Positions 1 to 10,991 of a stretch of DNA of 47,234 nucleotides are shown here, in pieces. Position 1 is the first letter of the stretch; each line of letters opens with the position of its first letter. The DNA comes from an uncultured Oscillospiraceae bacterium. Its GTDB lineage: Bacteria; Bacillota; Clostridia; Oscillospirales; Oscillospiraceae. The stretch is taken from positions 1 to 47,234 of the forward strand of contig CANQIO010000009.1 in the NCBI GenBank assembly GCA_947624065.1, in the 5' to 3' direction. Both the position numbers and the translations under genes were made by a program. The notes beneath the pieces are model-generated. The model was not told where the DNA came from and did not search any database. It saw only the letters and a list, made by a program, of their open reading frames with translations.

Positions 1-732
1 TATTGGAGCGTCCTAAAAACGCGCATGAAAAAAGAGGGCAGTCAGTTGCCTACACTTTGTAGTCAACTGAGAATGCTATCTGCTGATGGTAAACGATACA
101 AAACCGACGTTGCCGACACCGCCGGACTTCTCCGCATCATTCAATCCATTCCGTCTCCCAAGGCGGAGCCATTCAAGATGTGGCTGGCCCAGGTGGGGAA
201 CGAGCGGATCGAGGAGACGATAGACCCGGAGCTTTCCATTGACCGGGCGCTGGGTACATATGCGCGGCTGGGCTACTCGCCGGAATGGATCAACCAGCGC
301 ATCCGCACCATCCAAGCCCGGAAAGAGCTGACGGACGCATGGAAGGAGCACGGCGTAGAGGAAGGGCGCGAGTATGCCATTCTTACCGACGAAGTGACCC
401 GTGCGTGGTCTGGCATGAGCACACGGCAATATAAAAGGCTGAAGGGCCTGAAAAAGCAGAATCTGCGGGATAACATGAGCACACTGGAATTGGCTCTGAA
501 CATGCTGGCCGAGGCTACGACGACGGAACTGACCAAGACGGAGAATCCGCAGGGTCTAGCGGAAAATATCGTTGTCGCCCAGGCTGGCGGCGAAGTTGCC
601 GGAGACGCCCGGCGCAGCATTGAGGCCCGCACTGGCCGCCCGGTCATCACCAGCGAGAATGCCGCACAGCTCAATGCTGTGGTGACAAACCTGATCGAAG
701 GCGTGGCGGAGGATGAGGAGGGCAAGAAATGA
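1..732 (+). CDS. BRO-N family antirepressor-like protein, 5' end cut off
   Basis: The first ATG in frame is at base 25, but the frame is open back to base 1, and the eight codons before that ATG read YWSVLKTR, which fits the BRO-N core (a YW..LK.R pattern) and runs straight into the conserved body. The gene therefore starts to the left of the window and is partial. Later landmarks are DVADT, a SIPSPKAEPFKMWLAQVG stretch, an EWINQR stretch, and a C-terminal half rich in the LTDE, LRDNM and AEATTTE motifs of the BRO-N / DinD-like family. Such proteins are DNA-binding antirepressors or regulators of phages and integrative elements. The last four bases overlap the recombinase start (ATGA), so the two are co-translated. 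Family call is good; the exact role is inferred. Confidence 0.8.
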   Translation, partial: YWSVLKTRMKKEGSQLPTLCSQLRMLSADGKRYKTDVADTAGLLRIIQSIPSPKAEPFKMWLAQVGNERIEETIDPELSIDRALGTYARLGYSPEWINQRIRTIQARKELTDAWKEHGVEEGREYAILTDEVTRAWSGMSTRQYKRLKGLKKQNLRDNMSTLELALNMLAEATTTELTKTENPQGLAENIVVAQAGGEVAGDARRSIEARTGRPVITSENAAQLNAVVTNLIEGVAEDEEGKK

Positions 733-2228
733 CTGGTGTGATTTACGCCCGGTATTCCTCGGATAGCCAGCGGGAAGAAAGCATAGAAGGGCAAATTCGT
801 GAGTGCACCGCTTTTGCAGAGAAAAACGGCATCACTGTACTTCGTCACTACATAGACCGGGCGTTCTCCGCTAAGACCGATAACCGCCCGGAGTTCCAGG
901 CCATGATAAAGGACAGCGGCAAGAAGCTGTTTGACATGATCATCGTATGGAAGCTGGACCGCTTCGCCCGGAACCGTTATGACAGTGCCCGGTACAAAGC
1001 TGCGCTCAAAAAGAACGGCGTCAAGGTGGTATCTGCCACCGAGGTCATCTCCGAAGGAGCGGAAGGTATCATTCTGGAGTCCGTGTTGGAAGGCTATGCC
1101 GAGTATTATTCCGCCGACCTGTCCGAGAAGGTTATTCGGGGCATGACGGACAACGCCCTGAAATGCAAATTCAACGGCGGCACTTTGCCTACTGGCTATG
1201 TCATCAACAGCGAGCACCATTTCCAGATCGACCCTCTGACGGCACCCTATGTGCTGGAGGCGTTCAAGAAATACGATGCCGGGTACACCATGACGCAGAT
1301 ATGCAGCTGGTTGAACGAGAAGGGCGTGAAGAACACCCGCGGACAGGCGTTTTCCTACAACAGCATCCAGCATCTGCTGAACAATCGCCGCTACATAGGT
1401 GAGTTCCGCTACCGTGATACGGTGGTCCCCGACGGCATCCCAGCCATCGTGCCCAAGGACTTGTTTGACAGGGTGCAGGAAAAGCTGGCGAAGAATAAAA
1501 AAGCTCCGGCCCGGCACAAGGCTGAAGACGACTACTTACTCACGACTAAGCTGTTCTGCGGCTACTGCGGCAGCTATATGTGCGGTGAGAGCGGCACCAG
1601 CCACACTGGGAAGGTGCATCATTATTACAAATGCGCCACGGTGAAGAAGAAACGTGGGGACTGCCGCAAGAAGCCGGTCAACAAGGCGTTCATCGAAGAT
1701 TTCATCATCCACGAGACGATGAAGGAGATACGGGACGACAAGGTGGTTGCGGCTATCGTTTCCACGGTGATGGACCTACAAGAACAAGAGAACACCCAAC
1801 TCCCGCTGTACGAGCAGCAGCTGAAAGAAGCAGAGACGGGCATCAACAATTTACTCAACGCCATCCAGCAGGGAATACTTACTCCGTCCACCAAAACTAG
1901 GTTGGAAGAGTTGGAAGCCACAAAGGAGGACTTAGAGATCAGGATCGCCAACGAGAAGCTGGCGAAGCCGAAGCCGACGGCGGAGTTCGTGACCATGTGG
2001 CTGGAGCGGTTCCGCAAGCTGGACATGAGGAAGAAAGAGCACCGGCAGCAGCTCATAGACACGTTCATCAACTCGGTCTATTTGTTCGATGACAAGCTGA
2101 CGCTCCACATCAACTACAAAGACGGAACGAAGACCGTCACCTTTGACGAGATGAAAGCGGCCCTGGATGAACAGGCCGCGGGTTCGGATTTGGATTGCAC
2201 TGGTGCACCAGCGTCAAAACGCTCCTGA
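729..2228 (+). CDS. Large serine site-specific recombinase (integrase)
   Basis: 499 residues, the usual size for a large serine recombinase that integrates and excises prophages or conjugative elements. The N-terminal resolvase domain has Y-A-R-Y-S, giving Arg8 and the probable catalytic Ser10, and the KLDRFARN motif near residue 80. A recombinase DNA-binding domain follows (about 150-260), then a zinc ribbon with Cys277, Cys280, Cys302 and Cys312, and a predicted coiled coil around 355-425 that in this family controls synapsis. The C-terminus ends in the GSDLDCTGAP type of tail common to clostridial members. It starts inside the stop region of the BRO-N gene. No frameshift or missing catalytic residue is seen, so it appears intact. 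As such genes normally lie at one end of their element, the attachment site is expected just downstream. Confidence 0.93.
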   Translation: MTGVIYARYSSDSQREESIEGQIRECTAFAEKNGITVLRHYIDRAFSAKTDNRPEFQAMIKDSGKKLFDMIIVWKLDRFARNRYDSARYKAALKKNGVKVVSATEVISEGAEGIILESVLEGYAEYYSADLSEKVIRGMTDNALKCKFNGGTLPTGYVINSEHHFQIDPLTAPYVLEAFKKYDAGYTMTQICSWLNEKGVKNTRGQAFSYNSIQHLLNNRRYIGEFRYRDTVVPDGIPAIVPKDLFDRVQEKLAKNKKAPARHKAEDDYLLTTKLFCGYCGSYMCGESGTSHTGKVHHYYKCATVKKKRGDCRKKPVNKAFIEDFIIHETMKEIRDDKVVAAIVSTVMDLQEQENTQLPLYEQQLKEAETGINNLLNAIQQGILTPSTKTRLEELEATKEDLEIRIANEKLAKPKPTAEFVTMWLERFRKLDMRKKEHRQQLIDTFINSVYLFDDKLTLHINYKDGTKTVTFDEMKAALDEQAAGSDLDCTGAPASKRS

Positions 2229-2421: not shown

Positions 2422-2450
2422 TTGAAAGTTCATTGCATTTAAGATAAAAT
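2422..2450 (+). promoter_or_regulatory. Promoter of the ATPase-HNH-DUF262 operon
   Basis: TTGAAA (2422-2427), 17-base spacer, TAAAAT (2445-2450). It lies in a locally AT-rich stretch and gives a leader of about 100 bases before the ATPase start at 2561. The presence of a dedicated promoter supports the three genes being an independent cassette. Confidence 0.6.
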
Positions 2451-2560
2451 ATCAATATCAACAGGTCCAAAAGGGCATGATGGCTGAATATGGAACGCGG
2501 ACAAGCAGATTTCTGCTGACGGCAGCAGACGGGGCGGCGCTGCGCGCGGGAGGGAGTCAA

Positions 2561-3541
2561 ATGGAGATCCAGATCCCACAGGTCAATGTCATAAAGCAAC
2601 AGCGCATGACGATCGATAAAGACGTCTCCATCATATATGGCTATAACAACAGCGGAAAGACCTCCATACTCAAGGCGATCTACACATCGCTGGAGACCGC
2701 TCTGCTGACTTCCTTTTTGAGCGGCGGAGACGGACAGCGCTCGGTGTATATCCCCACAAACAGGCTGATCTATTCCCCCGTGAACACCAAGGACCCGCTG
2801 CCTGAGGATGTGGAGGACTTTGTCTCCTACCAGAGGGGCATCTATGACGATTACAGCCTGCATTTGAAGCACCTCCGGGACTATCTGCTGGGCTTCCACA
2901 GCGTGTCAGAGCTGATACGCCAAAGACTGGGCGAGATCTTCGGGATGGAGATATCCGATCTTCACGAACGGCACAGCGACGGGATAGAAAACATCATCCA
3001 TATTTATCTCTGCATTATCTGGGAGATGGTTTGGGACAGGTCGGTGGATATGTCCAAGCTGGAGAGCCTCCGGAGGGGCCTGGCGGGCAAAAACGTCCTC
3101 ATTATGATCGACGAGATCGAGATGTTCCTCCATGTGAAGGTGCAGGCCAAGCTGATCAGCAGCCTGAAGGCCGACTTTGTGAACTCCCAGATCCTTCTTA
3201 CGACCCATTCTCCGCTTATTTTGACGAGATACAAAAACTGCGCGATCTATTGCATTGACGACGGGGTGCTCACTCTGGAGCAGCAGCCGTTTTACTACAG
3301 AGATCTGGACGACGTGTTTGAGTCCTTTTTCTCCGTGGATGAACTGCCGCCGGAGGTCTCTCGGGATATCAGCTATCTGGGGCGGGTCATCCTGCGGGAA
3401 TGCCCCTATGACGGCCGCGAGGTGGATCGGATCGCCGCATACCTCAGAGAGGACTATCCGAGCCTGTATCAGAAATACAACAGGTTCGTGGTCAAGGCGC
3501 AGGGCGTCGGCGAGAGCTTGGGGGGCGAGCGCGCAGAATGA
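2561..3541 (+). CDS. AAA/ABC-type ATPase, PtuA-like (putative antiphage defence)
   Basis: 326 residues from the ATG at 2561, chosen over the ATG at 2477 because GGAGGGAG lies just upstream and the conserved fold starts here. A Walker A motif (GYNNSGKTS, residues 27-35, Lys33) follows an N-terminal beta strand. Walker B ends in Asp184-Glu185 (LIMIDEIEMFLH), and LTTHSPLIL carries the switch His216. This is the layout of AAA_15/AAA_21 ATPases of the OLD/PtuA kind, in a compact version; a canonical ABC signature is not obvious. The stop codon overlaps the start of an HNH nuclease gene by four bases. ATPase plus HNH partner is the arrangement of Septu defence (PtuA senses and gates, PtuB cuts nucleic acid). 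The defence role is inference from this pairing and from the neighbouring mobile element. Confidence 0.8.
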   Translation: MEIQIPQVNVIKQQRMTIDKDVSIIYGYNNSGKTSILKAIYTSLETALLTSFLSGGDGQRSVYIPTNRLIYSPVNTKDPLPEDVEDFVSYQRGIYDDYSLHLKHLRDYLLGFHSVSELIRQRLGEIFGMEISDLHERHSDGIENIIHIYLCIIWEMVWDRSVDMSKLESLRRGLAGKNVLIMIDEIEMFLHVKVQAKLISSLKADFVNSQILLTTHSPLILTRYKNCAIYCIDDGVLTLEQQPFYYRDLDDVFESFFSVDELPPEVSRDISYLGRVILRECPYDGREVDRIAAYLREDYPSLYQKYNRFVVKAQGVGESLGGERAE

Positions 3542-4185
3542 CCAATATCGTTCGGTCCGACACCCCGCCGGGACTGGCCGCGACGAGCCGGGAATTCCTT
3601 GCCAGCGTCGATGGCATGAGCGACGAGCAGGCCTATGAACACTATAAGGACCATAAAAACCGCTATCAATACAACACGCCGGAGACAAAGCGGGTCTTTC
3701 AGGAAATGAACGCATCCCGCTGCTCCTTCTGCACAAGATACATATTTGAGTTTGATTCCGAGATGACCGTGGAACACATCGAGCTCAAAAGCAAATGCCC
3801 GCGCAAGATCTTCGAGTGGAACAATCTGCTCTGCTCCTGCAAGACATGCAACTGCAAGCGCAGCACGAACGCTTATGACCGGGAGAGATATCTTGATCCC
3901 ACGGCAGTGGCGGATATAGAGAGGTATTTTTCTTTCTGCGCTGACGGCAGGGTGGAGCCGAGACAGGGACTGAGCGAAGCGGATCGGGGCCGCGCGCAAT
4001 ACATGATCGCGCTGTACAAGCTGAACCGGGGGGAGCTCGTCAGCGAAAGACGAAGGTTTTTTGCAGATCTGCTGGACGACGATTATTATGAACTGCTGGC
4101 CAAGCGGGGGAAAACAGATCAGAATATCATATTCTGGGCGGTATTTGCATACTATAAAAGGAGCAGGGAAGACCATGGACGCTAA
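3538..4185 (+). CDS. HNH endonuclease, PtuB-like
   Basis: 215 residues. The HNH core spans roughly 62-107: Cys62-x2-Cys65, then VEHIE with the catalytic-type His80, Asn95-Asn96-Leu, and Cys101-x2-Cys104-Asn105, which together form a zinc-bound beta-beta-alpha metal finger. The HNH is central with a helical C-terminal extension of about 100 residues, as in Septu PtuB and retron-associated HNH nucleases. It would cleave DNA or RNA once licensed by the ATPase. The start ATG overlaps the ATPase stop (ATGA), and the end overlaps the DUF262 gene by 11 bases, so all three are translationally coupled. All key residues are present. Target and trigger cannot be read from sequence. Confidence 0.82.
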   Translation: MTNIVRSDTPPGLAATSREFLASVDGMSDEQAYEHYKDHKNRYQYNTPETKRVFQEMNASRCSFCTRYIFEFDSEMTVEHIELKSKCPRKIFEWNNLLCSCKTCNCKRSTNAYDRERYLDPTAVADIERYFSFCADGRVEPRQGLSEADRGRAQYMIALYKLNRGELVSERRRFFADLLDDDYYELLAKRGKTDQNIIFWAVFAYYKRSREDHGR

Positions 4186-5536
4186 GAGGTTCATTTTGGA
4201 TCAGACGACGATCAAAAAGCTGTTGACCATATACAAATTGAACATCCCCGACTATCAGAGAAACTTTGTGTGGAAAAAGGATAAAAAGCGTAGGCTTTTG
4301 GACTCCCTCTTTCGCGGTTTTCCGATCGGGGCGATCACTTTGTATGAGGAGGACCAGACCTACTATATCATCGACGGCCTGCAGCGGATCAACACGCTCA
4401 GCCAATATCTCTCCCGCCCGAACGACATCATCCCCTTCAAAGAGTTCTACCAAAAGATGAAGGGCGATCTCGAGCGATTCCTCCGGGAGAGCGGCCTTTC
4501 CATACCGGCCGCCAAATTGAGAAAAGCCCTGGAGACATGGTATACAGGGCTGAACGCGCTTTACGCCTATGAAAAGGTGAGCACTTTGTATAACGCGCTG
4601 CGATCCGCCCATCCGGCGGTCGCCGACGCCTTCGTCGATCTCCCGCTGGTAGAGCGGCTGGCAGAGATCCTGAACCGCGGGATCGCGATCACCAACGATG
4701 ACATCGCGCTGATCATTTACAAAGGGAGCAAGGACGACCTGCCGGACCTGTTCAAGAATATCAACACCGGCAGCGTCGCGCTGTCGCCGTATGAGATCCT
4801 GCAGGCCGTATGGAATGGCTACAATTTGGACGCGGATATTCTGGAGCCCACCTATTCCGCGTACGATATGGCGCTGAAGCTCATCAACCGGGAATATGAG
4901 ATAGACTCCATCCGGACCGCCGGCTCTTTTGACATGTTCAAAAACCTGGTGGGGCTGAATCTACTGCTGTGCTGCAATGAAAAGTGCGACGTCCTGTTCC
5001 GCTCCAATTCCTTCAGGAGGCTGTCGCCTCCCATCAATCTGCCGGACGGAGCAAAAAAGTATTACGAAAACAACGAGATCGCCTTTGAGATCTATTCGAC
5101 GCTTCTGTACGGCGCGCCCAATAAGATCTCCAAGGCCATGGAAGAGCTCTTCCACAGCGGCCACAGCCAGGAGGAGATCAGCCGGTTCACCGCCAGCTTG
5201 AACCGGGCCATACTGGAGTCGGTGGATATCGCCATAGAGAATATTTCCCATGCGAAATGCGCCCTCCAGGACAGCAAATACCACTCGCTGTATGTGTTGG
5301 CCGGCGTGATCATCTCCCGGTATGACATCGGGACCGGGACCAGCCTCTCTGTCACAAGGACAGCTGTCCAAAATGAGATTATGGGCCGCTGCCTGGATCT
5401 GCAGATGCACAGGAAGGAAAGCTGGTTCGTGGATGAGAACCGGCAGATCGGCTTTTTCAACGTCAAGATCAGAGAACTTTTGAATCTGAAAAACGATGTG
5501 CTCTCTCTGATCGAGGCGGATCAGACGCCGGGATGA
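4175..5536 (+). CDS. DUF262 (ParB/GmrS-like) protein, third component of the cassette
   Basis: 453 residues from the ATG at 4175, with a purine-rich AGCAGGGAAG site before it; a longer frame opens at 4061 but would lie deep inside the HNH gene. The N-terminus is a clear DUF262 domain: IPDYQRNFVWK (24-34), a short linker, then IIDGLQR (65-71), equivalent to the DGQQR nucleotide-binding motif of GmrS and BrxU. A second block with FKNINTG fits the same family. No C-terminal DUF1524 HNH domain is seen; the last 150 residues are helical and unassigned. In GmrSD-type enzymes the DUF262 part uses NTP to drive a fused nuclease, so here it may act with the separate HNH protein encoded upstream. That coupling is inference. 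Confidence 0.78.
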   Translation: MDAKRFILDQTTIKKLLTIYKLNIPDYQRNFVWKKDKKRRLLDSLFRGFPIGAITLYEEDQTYYIIDGLQRINTLSQYLSRPNDIIPFKEFYQKMKGDLERFLRESGLSIPAAKLRKALETWYTGLNALYAYEKVSTLYNALRSAHPAVADAFVDLPLVERLAEILNRGIAITNDDIALIIYKGSKDDLPDLFKNINTGSVALSPYEILQAVWNGYNLDADILEPTYSAYDMALKLINREYEIDSIRTAGSFDMFKNLVGLNLLLCCNEKCDVLFRSNSFRRLSPPINLPDGAKKYYENNEIAFEIYSTLLYGAPNKISKAMEELFHSGHSQEEISRFTASLNRAILESVDIAIENISHAKCALQDSKYHSLYVLAGVIISRYDIGTGTSLSVTRTAVQNEIMGRCLDLQMHRKESWFVDENRQIGFFNVKIRELLNLKNDVLSLIEADQTPG

Positions 5537-5588: not shown

Positions 5589-5631
5589 AAACGAAAAGCA
5601 GCCCCACCAGGTGGGGCTGCTTTTCGTTTTT
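5589..5631. terminator. Bidirectional terminator between the DUF262 gene and dihydrofolate reductase
   Basis: A near-perfect stem of about 19 base pairs (5589-5607 with 5611-5629, loop CAG) contains the GCAGCCCCAC core, flanked by an A run on one side and a T run on the other. It can stop transcription from both converging genes. Confidence 0.9.
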
Positions 5632-5639
5632 GGGACCGG

Positions 5640-6116
5640 TCATTTTCTCTTATAGACCGCGTAGCGGTAGCGGAGGCCGGCGTGCTCCATGTCCGGGGAG
5701 AGCTCCGTCATCCGCCAGGCGGGGTCTTTGTCCAGGTCGGGAAACCAGCGGTCCGCGGGGAAGCTGGCGTCGATCTTCGTCACGTACGCGGTGTCGCACT
5801 GGGGCAGCAGCGCCTCATAGACGGAGGCGCCCCCGATCACTACGGCGTCCTCCGGCGCGGCGGCCAGCAGCGCCGCCACGGACCCATAGACCTCCGCGCC
5901 CTCCGGGGCGAAGCCCTCGGTCCGGGACAGGATCATGTTCCGCCGCTCCTTCAGGGGCCTGCCGCCGGGGAAGGTGGCCAGGGTCTTTCGCCCCAGGATC
6001 ACGGTCCGGCCCACGGTCAGCGCCTTGAAGCGCTTCAGATCCCCGGGGATATACGCCAGCTGGTCCCCGTCCTTTCCGATGGCCCAGCTGCGGTCCACTG
6101 CCACGATCAGCTCCAA
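5640..6116 (-). CDS. folA: Dihydrofolate reductase
   Basis: NADPH-dependent reduction of dihydrofolate to tetrahydrofolate, needed for thymidylate and purine synthesis in the cytosol. 158 residues from the TTG at 6116, the normal length. That start is chosen because AGGGAGG lies 8 bases upstream and the protein then begins ELIVAVDRSWAIG as in the family; the frame runs on to an ATG at 6176, but that would add 20 unlikely residues and cover the promoter. Asp26 in YIPGDLKRFK is the substrate-binding acid, GRTVILGRKT is the cofactor phosphate loop, and VIGGASVYEALLP is the second nucleotide motif. It sits at the end of the sugar transport operon but has its own promoter and terminator. Confidence 0.95.
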   Translation of the reverse strand: MELIVAVDRSWAIGKDGDQLAYIPGDLKRFKALTVGRTVILGRKTLATFPGGRPLKERRNMILSRTEGFAPEGAEVYGSVAALLAAAPEDAVVIGGASVYEALLPQCDTAYVTKIDASFPADRWFPDLDKDPAWRMTELSPDMEHAGLRYRYAVYKRK

Positions 6117-6166
6117 CGGTCTCGCCTCCCTGCGCCGGCGCCATCCTGTCGGGCCGGTGCTGTACC

Positions 6167-6195
6167 AGTGTAGCACATCCGCCCGGCAAATACAA
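6167..6195 (-). promoter_or_regulatory. Promoter of folA
   Basis: Read on the minus strand: TTGTAT (6195-6190), 17-base spacer, TACACT (6172-6167), about 50 bases ahead of the TTG start at 6116. It overlaps the end of the DUF624 gene, so the reductase can be expressed independently of the transport operon. Confidence 0.55.
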
Positions 6196-6846
6196 TCACG
6201 TCCGCCCGCCGGCAGTGTGGTCCGCTTCCAGCCGGGCCATGACGGGGTCCAGGCATTTCAGCGCGGCCAGGGCTGTCAGGGAGAAGCCGATGGGCACCCA
6301 GATGAAGAGCATGGCGGTGAGGATGCTGCTGAGAAAATAGACCGCCAGGATCGGCAGCAGGTCGATGAACACCAGCAGCAGCGTCCGGGGGAAATAGGCG
6401 ATGCCCAGCATCACCGCGTCGGTCAGCAGCCCGCCCAGCGTCACCTGGAACCGGGCCAGCAGCGGAAAGCCGTATGCGGCGACCAGGATCAGCAGCGCCA
6501 TGGGCACGCACAGCGCCGCCCGCACGGCGACGGCCGCCGGCCCCGCCCACCCGGAGGTGAGCCAGAAGGAGGCGACCAGGCCCGCCCCCGCCGCGGCCAG
6601 CAGCAGCCACAGGGCCGTGGCCTGCCGGAAATTTTGCCGGAAGGCGCGGAAAAAGCAGCGATACACTCCCGGCTCATCCCGCCGCAGGCACCCGATGGCG
6701 CTGTACAGCGCGCAGGTGGCCGCGCCAGCGGTGATCACAGGCACGCACAGAAGGACCCACAGCAGATCCAGGGCACACAGATCCACCGCCCGGTTCAAAA
6801 ACCGGGCGAAGGGCATGTTTTCGTCAAAGAGCCGTCGGTAATTCAC
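6196..6846 (-). CDS. DUF624 (YesL-like) membrane protein
   Basis: 216 residues with about five hydrophobic segments. The N-terminal MNYRRLFDENMPFARFLNRAVDL, followed by a membrane span and a conserved YRCFFRAFRQNFRQA region, is the hallmark of the DUF624/YesL family. These proteins are nearly always encoded with family-1 carbohydrate ABC importers, as here, and their molecular function is not established. It is the last gene of the leftward transport operon, 54 bases after the esterase. An auxiliary role in sugar uptake is inferred from context only. Confidence 0.75.
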   Translation of the reverse strand: MNYRRLFDENMPFARFLNRAVDLCALDLLWVLLCVPVITAGAATCALYSAIGCLRRDEPGVYRCFFRAFRQNFRQATALWLLLAAAGAGLVASFWLTSGWAGPAAVAVRAALCVPMALLILVAAYGFPLLARFQVTLGGLLTDAVMLGIAYFPRTLLLVFIDLLPILAVYFLSSILTAMLFIWVPIGFSLTALAALKCLDPVMARLEADHTAGGRT

Positions 6847-6900
6847 GTTCCGCCTCCCATACGCCCGCCGGACTGGAGCTGGCCATGACCGGGAGCGCGG

Positions 6901-7653
6901 TCAGAGCGCGTCCGCTGCCGGCAGCAGCAGCTCCATGGCCCGCTCCACGGAACGGTCCCACAGCCGCCACTCATGGCCGCCCGGCCAGTGCTCAAACCGG
7001 ACGTCAGCGCCCTTTTTCTCCAGGGCCTTCACCATGCGCTGGTTGCCGTCCCAGAGCCCGTCCTCCTCGCCGCAGGACAGATAGAACCGGGGCAGAGCCG
7101 CCGCGTCCGCTTTTCGCAGCAGCGCGTACAGGTCGCTCTCCGCGGGGACGGCCCGGCCGGGGCCGTAGAGGGCGTCGAACTCGCGCCGCTGCTCCTCCGG
7201 GGCGGCCTTGCGACGGGCCCTGATGTCCGTCACGGAGGAGAACGCCCCGCAGCCGGCATAGCGCTCCGGCGCGGTGAGGGCGCATTTGAGCGCGCCGTAT
7301 CCGCCCATGGAGAGGCCCATCACGAAGTTCCGCTCCCTGGCCGCCGACAGCCCGAAGGTCCGCCGGCAGAAATCGGGCAGCTCCTGGGAGATGTACGTGA
7401 AGTAGCGCAGCCCCAGGGCCATGTCGGCGTAAAAGCTCCGCTGGACCTCCGGCATGATGACCGCGGCGTTGTGCTCCCGGGCATAGCGCTCCACGCCGGT
7501 GAGCCGGGTCCAGCCGGTGCAGTTGTCGCTCAGCCCGTGCAGCAGGTATATCACCGGCACGTCCCCCAGGGGGACGTCCTCCGGCAGCAGGGCGATGAAG
7601 CTGGTGCACATCTCCAGGGACTTGGAGCTGAAATCGCAGCGCAGGTATGTCAT
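6901..7653 (-). CDS. Alpha/beta-hydrolase esterase (esterase D / FrmB / EstA-like)
   Basis: 250 residues, cytosolic (no signal peptide). IYLLHGLSDN gives the oxyanion loop, and MGLSMGGYGALK places the nucleophile at Ser115. An acidic residue in the CGEEDGLWDGN stretch and the His of GGHEWRLWD complete the catalytic triad. The family includes S-formylglutathione hydrolase, tributyrin/acetyl esterases and feruloyl esterases. Lying between the permeases and the DUF624 gene in a sugar-import operon, it probably removes acetyl or acyl groups from an imported oligosaccharide; this is inference. The start at 7653 is preceded by an AAAGGAG site. Confidence 0.85.
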   Translation of the reverse strand: MTYLRCDFSSKSLEMCTSFIALLPEDVPLGDVPVIYLLHGLSDNCTGWTRLTGVERYAREHNAAVIMPEVQRSFYADMALGLRYFTYISQELPDFCRRTFGLSAARERNFVMGLSMGGYGALKCALTAPERYAGCGAFSSVTDIRARRKAAPEEQRREFDALYGPGRAVPAESDLYALLRKADAAALPRFYLSCGEEDGLWDGNQRMVKALEKKGADVRFEHWPGGHEWRLWDRSVERAMELLLPAADAL

Positions 7654-7692
7654 AGACGCGTCTCTCCTTTCACAGTGGCCGCCGCGCGGCGC

Positions 7693-8562
7693 TCATCCCT
7701 TCACGGCGCCCACCGTGACGCCCTCCAGGAAGTATTTCTGGAGCGTGAAGAACAGGATGAACATGGGCAGCGCCGAGATGGTCGCGCCCGCCATCATGGG
7801 CGACAGCAGCGTCCAGCTGGCGTCCTTGAAGGTCTTGAGCGCCACCTGGATGGTGTACATGGAGTCCTGGGTGGTGGCCAAAAACGGCCAGAAGAAGGTG
7901 TTCCAGTTGCCCACGAAGGTGTTGATGGCCATGACGGCCAGCACGGTCTTGGACATGGGCAGGATGATGCTCCAGAAGATGCGGAACTGGTTGGCGCCCT
8001 CCACCTTGGCGTTTTCGATGAGGGCGGTGGGGATGCCGGAGAAGAACTGCTTGGACAGGAAGATGTTGTAGGACGTAACGCACCCCGGCAGGATCAGCGC
8101 CGCGTAGGTGTTGGACATGTTGAACTTGTTCACCAGCAGGATGTACAGCGGCACCTGGGTGACCTGGTAGGGGATCATCATGGCCACCAGGATCAGGAAG
8201 AACAAAAACTTGTTGCCGGGGAAGCGCACCTTGGCAAAGGCGTAGCCCGCCATGCTGGCAAAGATCACGTTGGACACGGTGGTGCCCGCGGCCATGATGA
8301 AGGTGTTCAGCAGCCACCGCAGGGAATAGGGGCTGAAATCAAAGAAAGCTTTGTAGGAGTCCAGCGTCCACTTGCGGGGAAAGACGGTGTACAGGCTGGA
8401 GGACATCTTCACATTGGGCCCGAAGGACCAGGAGACCATGTATACCAGCGGGAACAGAACCACGCCCGCGAAGGACAGCAGGATCAGCGCCAGAACGAGG
8501 TTGCGGACCAGGCGCATGCGGGGGTTGTGGTGGTGCTGGGAGTAAAGGCCTTTCGCTGCCAT
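7693..8562 (-). CDS. Carbohydrate ABC transporter permease, MalG type
   Basis: 289 residues, six membrane spans expected. The inner-membrane EAA loop reads VEGANQFRIFWSIILPMSKTV, with the conserved G and the P after LP, and contacts the ATPase. The C-terminal QKYFLEGVTVGAVKG ending is typical of MalG/CUT1 permeases. It starts 12 bases after the stop of its partner permease. No ATPase gene is in the operon, which is usual in Firmicutes, where a shared MsmX-like ATPase energises several CUT1 importers. Confidence 0.93.
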   Translation of the reverse strand: MAAKGLYSQHHHNPRMRLVRNLVLALILLSFAGVVLFPLVYMVSWSFGPNVKMSSSLYTVFPRKWTLDSYKAFFDFSPYSLRWLLNTFIMAAGTTVSNVIFASMAGYAFAKVRFPGNKFLFFLILVAMMIPYQVTQVPLYILLVNKFNMSNTYAALILPGCVTSYNIFLSKQFFSGIPTALIENAKVEGANQFRIFWSIILPMSKTVLAVMAINTFVGNWNTFFWPFLATTQDSMYTIQVALKTFKDASWTLLSPMMAGATISALPMFILFFTLQKYFLEGVTVGAVKG

Positions 8563-8574
8563 ATGCCCACCCCC

Positions 8575-9483
8575 TTAATATTCCACGTCGCTGCCGGCGA
8601 CCTTGAACTGGATGGCCGTCATGGCGGCGATGAGGATCGTCAGCAGGATCGCCTGGGCGCAGGCCAGGCCGTACTTGCCGTATTTGAAAGCGTTGTTGAA
8701 GATCAGCAGCCCGATCATGGTGGTGTTGTTGTCCGGGCCGCCGCCGGTCATCATGTAGGCGTTGATGAACACCTGGAAGGAGTTGATGATGCCGGTGATG
8801 AACAAAAACAGGGTCGTGGGCTTGCACAGGGGCAGCACGATATAGCGCACCTTCTGCCAGAAGGTGGCGCCGTCCACCTCGGCCGCCTCAAAGTAGGTGT
8901 TGTCGATGCCCATGAGGGCGGCGATATAGATGATGATGCTGCTCCCGTTGCCGCCCAAAAGCGCCATGAGCACCAGGGAGAGCATGGCCGTCTTGCTGGA
9001 GGTGAGCCACTGCTGGGTGGGCAGGTGGAAGAAGGTCAGCAGCTGGTTGAAGAGCCCCGCGTCTGAGGAGTCGTAGATCCACAGCCACACCATGCTGGTC
9101 ACCACGGCCGAGGCCACGGCCGGGATATAGTACAGGGACTTGAAAAACGATTGGGTGCCCCGCCGGAAGGGAAGGATCATCAGCGCCACGATGAAGGCGA
9201 TGACCAGCGACAGAGGCACGGTCAGCGCCGTGTAGACGAGGGTGTTCCGGCAGGCCTTCCAAAAGAGCTTGTTGCTGAGGGCCGTCTCGTAGTTGTCGAG
9301 CTTCACCCAGGTGGAGCCGAAGGGCTTATAGTTTTGGAAACTGGTGATGACCGCGCTGATGAGGGGATAGATCGTGAAGAGCAAAAACACGACCATGGCC
9401 ACGGCGATGAACAGATAGCCGCTGATATGATCCTCCCGGATGCGCAGCTTGCCTCTTTTTCGGATCGTCCTCTGCTGTTCCAT
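8575..9483 (-). CDS. Carbohydrate ABC transporter permease, MalF type
   Basis: 302 residues. A charged cytosolic N-terminus (RKRGKLRIREDH) precedes the first span, and about six spans follow. The EAA loop is EAAEVDGATFWQKVRYIVLP. It forms the heteromeric channel with the MalG-type permease encoded next. The ATG at 9483 has GAGAGGAG upstream. It is separated from the binding-protein gene by two strong hairpins that probably set the ratio of binding protein to permease. Confidence 0.93.
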   Translation of the reverse strand: MEQQRTIRKRGKLRIREDHISGYLFIAVAMVVFLLFTIYPLISAVITSFQNYKPFGSTWVKLDNYETALSNKLFWKACRNTLVYTALTVPLSLVIAFIVALMILPFRRGTQSFFKSLYYIPAVASAVVTSMVWLWIYDSSDAGLFNQLLTFFHLPTQQWLTSSKTAMLSLVLMALLGGNGSSIIIYIAALMGIDNTYFEAAEVDGATFWQKVRYIVLPLCKPTTLFLFITGIINSFQVFINAYMMTGGGPDNNTTMIGLLIFNNAFKYGKYGLACAQAILLTILIAAMTAIQFKVAGSDVEY

Positions 9484-9524
9484 GATTGCACTCCTCTCGC
9501 ATACCGGCGGACGCGCCGGATAGG

Positions 9525-9591
9525 GTTTTCAGCCGGAAAGCCAGGCTTTCCGGCTGAAACGAAGGGCGGCCCGCCCGCGGGGGCGGGCCGC
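9525..9591 (-). terminator. Two tandem hairpins between binding protein and permease genes
   Basis: Stem 1 joins 9566-9576 and 9581-9591 (GC-rich, 11 pairs). Stem 2 joins 9527-9542 and 9544-9559 (perfect 16-base inverted repeat). Neither is followed by a clean T run on the minus strand. They resemble the mRNA-protecting or partially terminating structures that follow binding-protein genes in ABC operons. Confidence 0.6.
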
Positions 9592-9617
9592 TTTCAAAGG
9601 TCTGGAAAGGAGTGGGA

Positions 9618-10991
9618 TCAGCTGATGAAGCCGGTCTCGCAGTTCTCCTCGCCGAACTGGGCGAAGGCCTCCTCGCAGATGGTGTCATACATCTCCTGGG
9701 CGGTGGTCTCGCCGGCGATCAGGGCCTGCATCTTGGGCACGATGATCTCGTCCATGATGGTGTTGGCGATGCCGGACTGCTCGCCGGTGACGCCGGAGGG
9801 AGGCGCCACCACCAGGCTGACGGCACGGGCCGCGGCCGCGGCGTTGCCCTCGCTCTGGTCAAGGGTCATGCTGGCCTGGGCCTCGCGGCCGCTCTCGCAG
9901 ACGGCGGAGAGGTAGCAGTCGCCGGCGGTCTTGGCGGCGGGCTCACCGGAGCAGATGTAATCCAGGAAGAGCATCACGTTCTTCAGGTGCTCATCGGTGG
10001 TGTTCTTGTTGCGCAGGGGCAGGAAGGCGTTGGCCATGCCGTAGCAGGTCTCGGTGGCGCCCTCCATGATGGGGCAGGGCAGGAACACGTATTCCACTTC
10101 CACGGAGCCTTCCACGGCGGTGCCGTCGGCGATGCCGGCGTTGTTGGTGTTCACGTTGCTCTCAAACAGAGGCATGGCCTTGCCGGTGATCATGCACTCG
10201 CCGGTCTCCAGCATCACCAGACGGGTGCCGGCCTCCACGCCGTAGTTGGGCATGTAGCCGCTGGAGATGATCTCCTCGATGGCCTTGAGCAGGTTCAGCA
10301 TGTTCTCGGAGGTGTAGGCATACTTCAGATCGGCGGTGAAGTCGTTGCTCAGACCCGCCACGGAGCCGAAGATGTGCACGAAGTCGGTGGTGGTGATGCC
10401 CGCGTTGGCGAACACGAAGCCAAAGCAGTCGTCGGTGGTGCCCTTCTCGATGGCCTCCAGGAATTCCTCATAGGTCCAGCCCTCGGTCTGCACCTTCTCC
10501 ACGTCCACGCCGGCGGCCTCCAGCATGGCCTTGTTGCCGCCCATGGCCTGGATGCTCACGTACAGGGGCAGGCCATAGAGCGTGTCGTCCAGGGTCATGT
10601 AGCCCAGCACGGACTCGTCATAGTCCTCCAGGCGGCCCTCGGGCATGTAGTCGGTGATGTCGATGGCCACGCCCATGTCCACATAGGTGCCAAGGGTCTG
10701 GCACTCGATGTTGGCGATGTCGGGCGCGTCGCCGGACAGGCACAGGGTGCTCAGGCGGGAGACGTTGTCATCCCAGGAGGAGGGGGTCACCTCGATGTGC
10801 AGATTGGGGTACATCTTGTTGAACTCCTCGATCCAGCCCTGCAGGTGGGTGGTGTAGTCGGTGATGATCGGGGGCGCCAGGATGGTGATGGTGTCCTCCA
10901 CGTCGCTGATGACTTCCCCATCGGCCAGAGCGAAAACGCTCATGGACAGGACCATCGTCAGCGCCAGAAGCATAGCCAGAAGCTTTTTCAT
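9618..10991 (-). CDS. Extracellular carbohydrate-binding protein of the ABC importer
   Basis: 457 residues from the ATG at 10991, which has AAGGAGG ten bases upstream; the frame extends to 11078, but that would cover the promoter. The N-terminus MKKLLAMLLALTMVLSMSVFALA is a Sec signal peptide, with cleavage likely after ALA. The body has the family-1 solute-binding layout: WIEEFNKMYPNLHIEV, SGDAPDI, YGLPLYVS, and a C-terminal half with GKAMPLFES. It delivers a sugar, probably an oligosaccharide, to the two permeases. Unlike most Firmicute binding proteins it has no lipobox cysteine, so how it stays at the surface is unclear. First gene of the leftward operon. Confidence 0.9.
   Translation of the reverse strand: MKKLLAMLLALTMVLSMSVFALADGEVISDVEDTITILAPPIITDYTTHLQGWIEEFNKMYPNLHIEVTPSSWDDNVSRLSTLCLSGDAPDIANIECQTLGTYVDMGVAIDITDYMPEGRLEDYDESVLGYMTLDDTLYGLPLYVSIQAMGGNKAMLEAAGVDVEKVQTEGWTYEEFLEAIEKGTTDDCFGFVFANAGITTTDFVHIFGSVAGLSNDFTADLKYAYTSENMLNLLKAIEEIISSGYMPNYGVEAGTRLVMLETGECMITGKAMPLFESNVNTNNAGIADGTAVEGSVEVEYVFLPCPIMEGATETCYGMANAFLPLRNKNTTDEHLKNVMLFLDYICSGEPAAKTAGDCYLSAVCESGREAQASMTLDQSEGNAAAAARAVSLVVAPPSGVTGEQSGIANTIMDEIIVPKMQALIAGETTAQEMYDTICEEAFAQFGEENCETGFIS

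Follow-up and report, generated by a model that had tools for sequence, protein, structure and literature searches.

What is the role of three closely packed genes, encoding a PtuA-like ATPase, a PtuB-like HNH endonuclease and a DUF262 protein, that follow a large serine recombinase gene in an uncultured Oscillospiraceae bacterium? The genes, called here the trio, lie near the left edge of contig CANQIO010000009.1 (assembly GCA_947624065.1), of which 47,234 nucleotides were analyzed as one stretch, referred to below as the window (Table 1). A first-pass annotation had proposed a candidate antiphage system on the plan of Septu (PtuA/PtuB). Our main finding is that the trio is conserved as a unit across a number of related gut bacteria and that its DUF262 protein has no nuclease domain. 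The trio is probably a defense unit, and we lean towards reading it as a mobile antiphage unit of three genes, akin to Septu, in which a PtuAB effector would be coupled to a DUF262 sensor or switch.

Species genomes were scanned with an alignment (A1) of the window DUF262 protein and two GmrSD-like proteins; 269 stretches matched, 150 were confirmed and the best 80 were kept, and the counts from this pattern scan are lower bounds. Among these best 80, seven loci (L088 to L094) carry close DUF262 relatives, with 49 to 58% identity, the next relative by E-value (L095, 1e-25) showing 31% identity over residues 21 to 265. The seven are labeled Lachnospiraceae (five), Roseburia (one) and Mucispirillum (one, a metagenome-assembled genome). 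The trio screen covered 93 loci, namely these 80 and 13 viral ones. The first-pass annotation had named homologs lying apart in most genomes as an outcome that would speak against it; what was found is the full trio, in the same order, in six of the seven close relatives (L088, L089, L090, L091, L092 and L094). In addition, an alignment of the HNH proteins, searched against 299 genomes of the family of genome G544, gave two matches at 1e-10: G985 (8.9e-100) holds a further full trio (L183), which brings the number of sets to eight including the window, and G843 (1e-13) holds a PtuA/PtuB pair without DUF262 (L184). We infer that this family is Lachnospiraceae, because the L058 protein, from G544, has the same sequence as its counterpart in L102, which is so labeled.

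The eight sets share gene order, which upholds the view that the three genes form one unit; in the window, order, strand and overlaps (4 bases between ATPase and HNH genes, 11 between HNH and DUF262 genes) are as first annotated. Order and closeness are kept in at least five different neighborhoods, at identities of 40 to 69% among the eight sets and of 40 to 57% to the window copy. Differences at codon positions 1, 2 and 3 are 0.32-0.40, 0.22-0.28 and 0.58-0.60, the pattern expected for proteins under selection. All eight trio ATPases fall on one side of a branch with support 100/99 (unrooted tree of 21 rows), as do the eight HNH proteins with support 97/99 (unrooted tree of 18 rows), and the pairwise identities of the three proteins are correlated (r 0.78-0.92, 28 pairs), a correlation that is not independent of shared host history.

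How does the trio relate to ordinary PtuAB loci? Among 398 genomes of the phylum, the PtuB family model gave 25 matches in 21, the window being one of these matches, and 14 loci were viewed (eight of the 24 other phylum matches, five of 11 plasmid or phage matches, and G843). An ATPase and an HNH gene were both detected in nine (L006, L009, L065 to L070, L184); three others (L005, L007, L008) gave the ATPase without the HNH gene, and in L071 and L072 neither gene was detected. With the window DUF262 protein as query, no DUF262 protein was detected in these 14 loci, 12 of which are PtuA/PtuB-like. Conversely, the NsnA model matched 49 of the 398 genomes, and none of the 10 loci viewed from these matches has a PtuA-PtuB pair, an HNH segment lying within the DUF262 protein itself, at its end, in L080 and L081. 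From these reverse searches, a DUF262 protein of the window kind is tied to the PtuAB clade of the trio, not to PtuAB generally. It is conceivable that an ordinary Septu pair and an independent DUF262 gene simply hitch-hike on the same mobile segments, and the absence of DUF262 from all 12 PtuA/PtuB-like loci, indicating that the PtuAB family does not need it, points that way; but order and closeness outlast strong divergence from the window copy in the eight sets and their several neighborhoods, and the trio ATPase and HNH proteins form clades of their own, so that we consider hitch-hiking quite improbable. A Septu pair with a mere chance neighbor was rejected on the conserved order, the correlated identities and the separate clades.

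The PtuA, PtuB and GmrSD_N models, proposed earlier for profile searches, all match their respective proteins. PtuA tops the PADLOC families that match the ATPase, and all seven aligned trio ATPases match PtuA models; used as a profile against PDB, the aligned orthologs (A2) retrieve solved PtuA (8ee4) first, at 7e-16. NsnB is absent among the 25 families listed, of 163 matching ones, for this protein. Similarly, the 25 PADLOC families listed for the HNH protein, of 52, are all PtuB or retron HNH families, the protein scores above the TIGR02646 cut-off of NCBIfam (55.6 versus 52.15 bits), and its aligned orthologs (A3) retrieve solved PtuB (8ee7) first, at 3e-14; its two Pfam HNH matches are under the curated cut-offs (19.4 versus 27.5 and 15.3 versus 21.4 bits). 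The Septu plan of ATPase plus HNH is thereby borne out. The residues picked out at first pass, Walker A Lys33, Walker B Asp184-Glu185 and His216 of the ATPase and Cys62, Cys65, Cys101, Cys104 and His80 of the HNH protein, are in place and invariant in seven aligned sets, the eighth (L183) being left out of these alignments. The spacing from His80 to Asn96 equals that of His75 and Asn91, reported as essential in PtuB of Septu EcB88 (PMC13096335), where Walker and HNH residues are likewise described as essential.

The DUF262 protein matches Pfam GmrSD_N (PF03235) at 98.4 bits (cut-off 33.2). Its GmrS motifs QR, DGLQR and FxxxN are invariant in all seven aligned copies, and Asp-Gly-Leu-Gln-Arg is indeed at residues 67 to 71; DGQQR, in the GmrS motif list reported in PMC4619093, is the counterpart of DGLQR here. 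Against PDB, the seven-row alignment (A4) gave a single, weak match, 7p9k (0.0084), which reached 5.5e-8 when five distant relatives were added (12-row alignment A5). This entry is labeled 'DUF262 domain-containing protein', and we take it to be BrxU. No GmrSD_C (DUF1524) nuclease was matched by Pfam in the DUF262 protein up to E = 1. Its nearest relatives outside the trio are mostly GmrSD-like single chains of 610 to 777 amino acids (L063, identical to L096; L058; L097; L168; L169), in which the DUF262 and helical parts are followed by a segment like DIEHIA...NLCYLPEYVNRSK that we read as a putative DUF1524-like His-Me nuclease. Pfam GmrSD_C matched it only in L058 and weakly (E = 0.0087, 16.4 bits, cut-off 23). 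Homology of the trio protein to these chains stops just short of the nuclease-like segment; L095 ends at a contig edge before the position of that segment.

This boundary also suits a split type IV restriction enzyme, in which DUF262 would bind modified phage DNA, the HNH protein would replace the DUF1524 nuclease in trans and the ATPase would be an assembly or translocation factor, so that invading DNA would be cut directly and cell death would be unneeded. The lengths of the near non-trio relatives (610 to 640 amino acids in L063, L058 and L097), the end of homology right before the DIEH...N segment and the weak GmrSD_C match are all compatible with such a split. However, the HNH protein belongs to the PtuB/TIGR02646 family and has no DUF1524 match in Pfam, and PtuAB is reported to work without DUF262 in Septu (PMC13096335) and in retron-Eco7 (PMC11555353), which makes this an unlikely account. 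Two observations on other DUF262 proteins may be added. In viral contig L169, the GmrSD-like protein stands beside two genes that we read as cytosine methyltransferase-like and a restriction-like gene. The DUF262 proteins of L077 to L081 are about 365 amino acids long; L077 and L080 adjoin genes that to us resemble adenine methyltransferases, and L080 matches PADLOC REase_II at 2.5e-153.

Six of the eight trio DUF262 copies (L088, L089, L090, L091, L094 and L183; alignment A6) have an extra C-terminal domain of about 110 amino acids with the conserved motif PYATGxKRYL...GDYYIETHKS.... It has no Pfam match in three copies scanned and no convincing NCBIfam or PDB match; all six members weakly match PHROG 32890, whose function is unassigned (best 7e-4). 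This domain may set what the sensor recognizes. No remnant of it was seen by eye in the 100 bases 3' of the window DUF262 gene.

Where does the trio stand among known systems? Compared with Septu type I, it is alike in ATPase and HNH families, in their adjacency and overlap and in catalytic residues, and differs by the DUF262 gene, by the compact ATPase and by the separate clade of both proteins. The remark that DUF262 is not part of Septu agrees with Septu as described in PMC8565338; in the trio it is a real third component, conserved with the other two. Septu type II, or retron I-A, also joins a third gene to PtuAB: there, a reverse transcriptase (RT) gene precedes PtuAB, in 7.6% of Septu systems according to PMC8565338, whereas DUF262 is downstream in the trio. 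An RT gene would not fit into the 332 bp that separate the recombinase and ATPase genes, no search with a dedicated model for RT or msr-msd having been made. Membership of the retron I-A/Ec78 equivalogs was rejected, as ATPase and HNH protein both score below the NCBIfam cut-offs.

DUF262 is reported in Menshen, Dazbog, PD-T4-2, GmrSD, BrxU and SspE (PMC10952713). GmrSD, BrxU and SspE share with the trio a DUF262 domain with QR, DG(L/Q)QR and FxxxN motifs, but have a DUF1524 nuclease domain, and their partner genes differ. Menshen (NsnABC) is alike in combining DUF262, an OLD/ABC-type ATPase and a third protein; this third protein is NsnC, not HNH, and the trio ATPase is nearest to PtuA. The window DUF262 protein matches NsnA at its N terminus only (1.6e-20, 71.7 bits, profile positions 55 to 202 of 385), when a true NsnA in L075 scores 476.9 bits; with this partial match and a PtuB-type HNH as third protein, Menshen membership was rejected. 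For PDC-M55, a candidate system of PADLOC, the DUF262 protein matches M55C over residues 21 to 61 only, and M55A is not found in the genome of the window at 1e-5. None of six genomes matched M55B even at E ≤ 1, a uniform silence that limits the weight of this negative. The predicted tripartite defense operon ptuXYZ (PMC11980606) comes close, with a nuclease-less DUF262 protein and a PtuA-like ATPase; its third protein is described as a PIN-like/BECR-fold RNase where the trio has a PtuB-type HNH, and gene order differs. The trio appears to be a Septu variant, convergent with Menshen and ptuXYZ in that all three combine DUF262 with an ATPase of this type, rather than a categorically new system. 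No description of PtuA, PtuB and DUF262 together was found in the open literature searched, subscription papers and bioRxiv being mostly outside that search and the DefenseFinder list uncompared. As for L075 (G574:C13, 2272-5471), it is a bona fide Menshen locus (NsnA 1e-143, NsnB 2e-112, NsnC 1e-57) whose plan, a nuclease-less DUF262 protein, an ATPase and a third protein, closely resembles ptuXYZ and may be the same system; Menshen is unnamed in the main text of PMC11980606. The end of NsnC in L075 looks BECR-like to us, and Pfam and PDB sequence searches give this no support. In Enterococcus locus L129 (5638-7975), a distant DUF262 protein stands directly 5' of a distant ATPase (E = 3e-4), perhaps another DUF262-ATPase combination.

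Precedents for a third gene on an ATPase or PtuAB module (the RT of Septu type II, and Menshen and ptuXYZ with DUF262 and ATPase) argue for the Septu-like unit by analogy. On its own PtuAB is a known defense, and in retrons it serves as the effector. The simplest joint reading is a sensor plus an effector, because the predicted PtuAB effector overlaps a gene that seems to keep the sensing, NTP (nucleoside triphosphate)-binding half of a restriction enzyme without its cutting half. ATPase and HNH protein would form the effector complex, and the DUF262 protein, which keeps the ParB/Srx-type, NTP-binding core found in modification-dependent restriction enzymes but no nuclease domain, would be the sensor or switch. 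It would detect a cue of infection, the likeliest cues being DNA that is modified or foreign in some other way and a shift in the nucleotide pool; NTP binding or hydrolysis would then release or activate the PtuAB nuclease, which would cut DNA or tRNA and stop infection. Our best reading, by analogy, is that DUF262 would stand in for the retron of Septu type II. In retron-Eco7, PtuAB is reported to be a toxin that RT and msDNA (multicopy single-stranded DNA) neutralize as antitoxin (PMC11555353), and DUF262 could silence PtuAB in the same way, phage-induced loss or titration of it freeing the toxin. The gene overlaps, holding the three genes together, accord with such a toxin-antitoxin arrangement; yet L093 has a close DUF262 relative without ATPase or HNH gene upstream, and we regard this arrangement as rather improbable. 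A more specific version of the sensor-effector reading, in which the DUF262 protein, having lost its nuclease, would control a compact PtuAB in response to modified phage DNA or to nucleotides, would be a third, independent arming of Septu that merges type IV sensing with an abortive effector; we offer it tentatively.

To our knowledge, the trigger of Septu is still open. With a dedicated, recognizable candidate sensor, the trio makes this question approachable through one gene. For Septu itself, cleavage of tRNA-Tyr and escape phages without a common mutation are reported (PMC13096335). If the sensor-effector reading is true, PtuAB is a modular effector driven by different sensors, retron or DUF262, and DUF262 proteins work as sensors apart from a nuclease of their own.

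Several observations weigh against this reading. Walker A and Walker B lie about 120 residues closer together in the window ATPase than is reported for EcB88 PtuA (K33-D184 versus K43-D316), and because of this the known PtuA-PtuB assembly may not form. Both proteins are below the NCBIfam retron equivalog cut-offs (72.3 versus 500 bits for PtuA, 74.7 versus 150 bits for PtuB). The tie of the correlated identities to host history counts here too, as do the several long-branched other rows of the trees, one of which (L070) the tree program flags as meeting the trio, long branch to long branch, among the ATPases. In L093, no ATPase or HNH gene precedes DUF262; we read the gene there as a likely MATE transporter, and DUF262 itself is cut short by the contig edge. 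The window copy and L092 have no extra C-terminal domain, the match to a promoter is near chance level and therefore weak evidence, and there is no support from defense neighbors (see below).

The trio is also rare, in samples of family, genus, order and phylum that partly overlap. At ortholog level it is absent from the 34 other genomes of the genus (four give five short matches of 32 to 41%) and from the 397 others of the phylum sample (two have a distant PtuB); none of 116 other genomes of the order matches at 1e-30, and one of 299 genomes of the G544 family has it. Searched alone, the window DUF262 protein finds only its host among 300 genomes of the host family (0 of 299 others); at 1e-5 it has no match among 72,556 plasmid and 50,697 phage records. 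In viral contigs, neither this protein nor the ATPase, HNH and C-terminal-domain alignments found a relative, and none of the 13 DUF262 loci found there with A1 has the trio.

Was the trio acquired? Its G+C content is 53.5%, and that of the recombinase 53.9%, versus 63.6% for 5640-47234. Another genome of this genus, G712, aligns to 5589-10343 with 95.6% identity; the match breaks off at 5589, and beyond that edge G712 has other genes and no trio. The DHFR gene occurs in four other genomes of the genus, and G712 is the only one of four stretches compared to align. Low G+C, the break with G712 and the recombinase and Bro-N genes at the left edge fit an acquired segment, the left end of which is beyond view. 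An attachment site for the recombinase was looked for and not found: the hairpin-like intergenic stretch at 2263-2329, 3' of the recombinase, is a dispersed repeat or a remnant of a site, and is no clear att site because part of it recurs at three places in the genome (the window's included, with at most three mismatches) and in G712.

The position next to the recombinase had earlier been said to fit a defense island, a proposal that finds no support here, with no obvious defense neighbors among the ORFs scanned and no recombinase relative in the available flanks of the seven other trio loci (short in L089 and L091). Ten flanking open reading frames (ORFs) from five of these seven loci were compared with PADLOC; nine have no match at 1e-5, and the remaining one, from L183, matches helicase models of DpdF (4.7e-196) and resembles RecQ in our reading. 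Pfam assigned neighbors in four loci (seven ORFs): an EamA transporter and HSP90 in L088, a class II tRNA synthetase and an M19 dipeptidase in L090, a DegT aminotransferase and one ORF without family in L092, and an M19 dipeptidase in L094. L089, L090 and L094 are probably one site, because an M19 neighbor is common to all three. In the window, PADLOC was run on the trio and recombinase, and Pfam on 10 other ORFs: six have a family, none obviously of defense, and four have none and are perhaps in wrong frames.

Table 1. Features of the trio locus, in window coordinates
Feature	Positions	Strand	Evidence or remark
Bro-N domain protein, phage-type, at contig edge (context)	25..732	+	Pfam PF02498, E=1.5e-6, 29.1 bits, cut-off 25.6
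Large serine recombinase (context)	729..2228	+	Pfam Resolvase 1.9e-29, Recombinase 3.2e-20
Candidate promoter TTGAAA-17-TAAAAT	2422..2450	+	Consensus scan, 10/12 matches, weak versus chance
Compact PtuA-like ABC/OLD-type ATPase, 326 aa	2561..3541	+	PADLOC PtuA 1.1e-29; PDB 8ee4
PtuB-like HNH endonuclease, 215 aa	3538..4185	+	PADLOC PtuB 5.1e-27; TIGR02646; PDB 8ee7
GmrS-type DUF262 protein without nuclease domain, 453 aa	4175..5536	+	Pfam GmrSD_N 7.8e-28; PDB 7p9k
Putative bidirectional terminator, perfect 20-bp inverted repeat	5589..5629	.	Common to trio and convergent DHFR gene

One promoter and one terminator had been assigned to the trio. The terminator part stands, as a terminator-like repeat that could end the trio transcript, although the consensus terminator scan did not list it; a promoter-like site is there, close to what shuffled sequence gives (4 sites versus 2.2 ± 1.6), which makes it weak evidence. 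The ATPase reading frame is open already from 2477; this longer form is unlikely, because the orthologs have their start at the Met at 2561 or close to it. This Met has GGAGGGAG on its 5' side and agrees with the residue numbering of the first-pass annotation.

A last observation concerns an ordinary PtuA-PtuB-like pair on a Rhizobium plasmid (L009, 2566-7455). It is flanked by helicase-related and DUF1156 proteins, which recall the Hma operon reported near Septu (PMC8565338).

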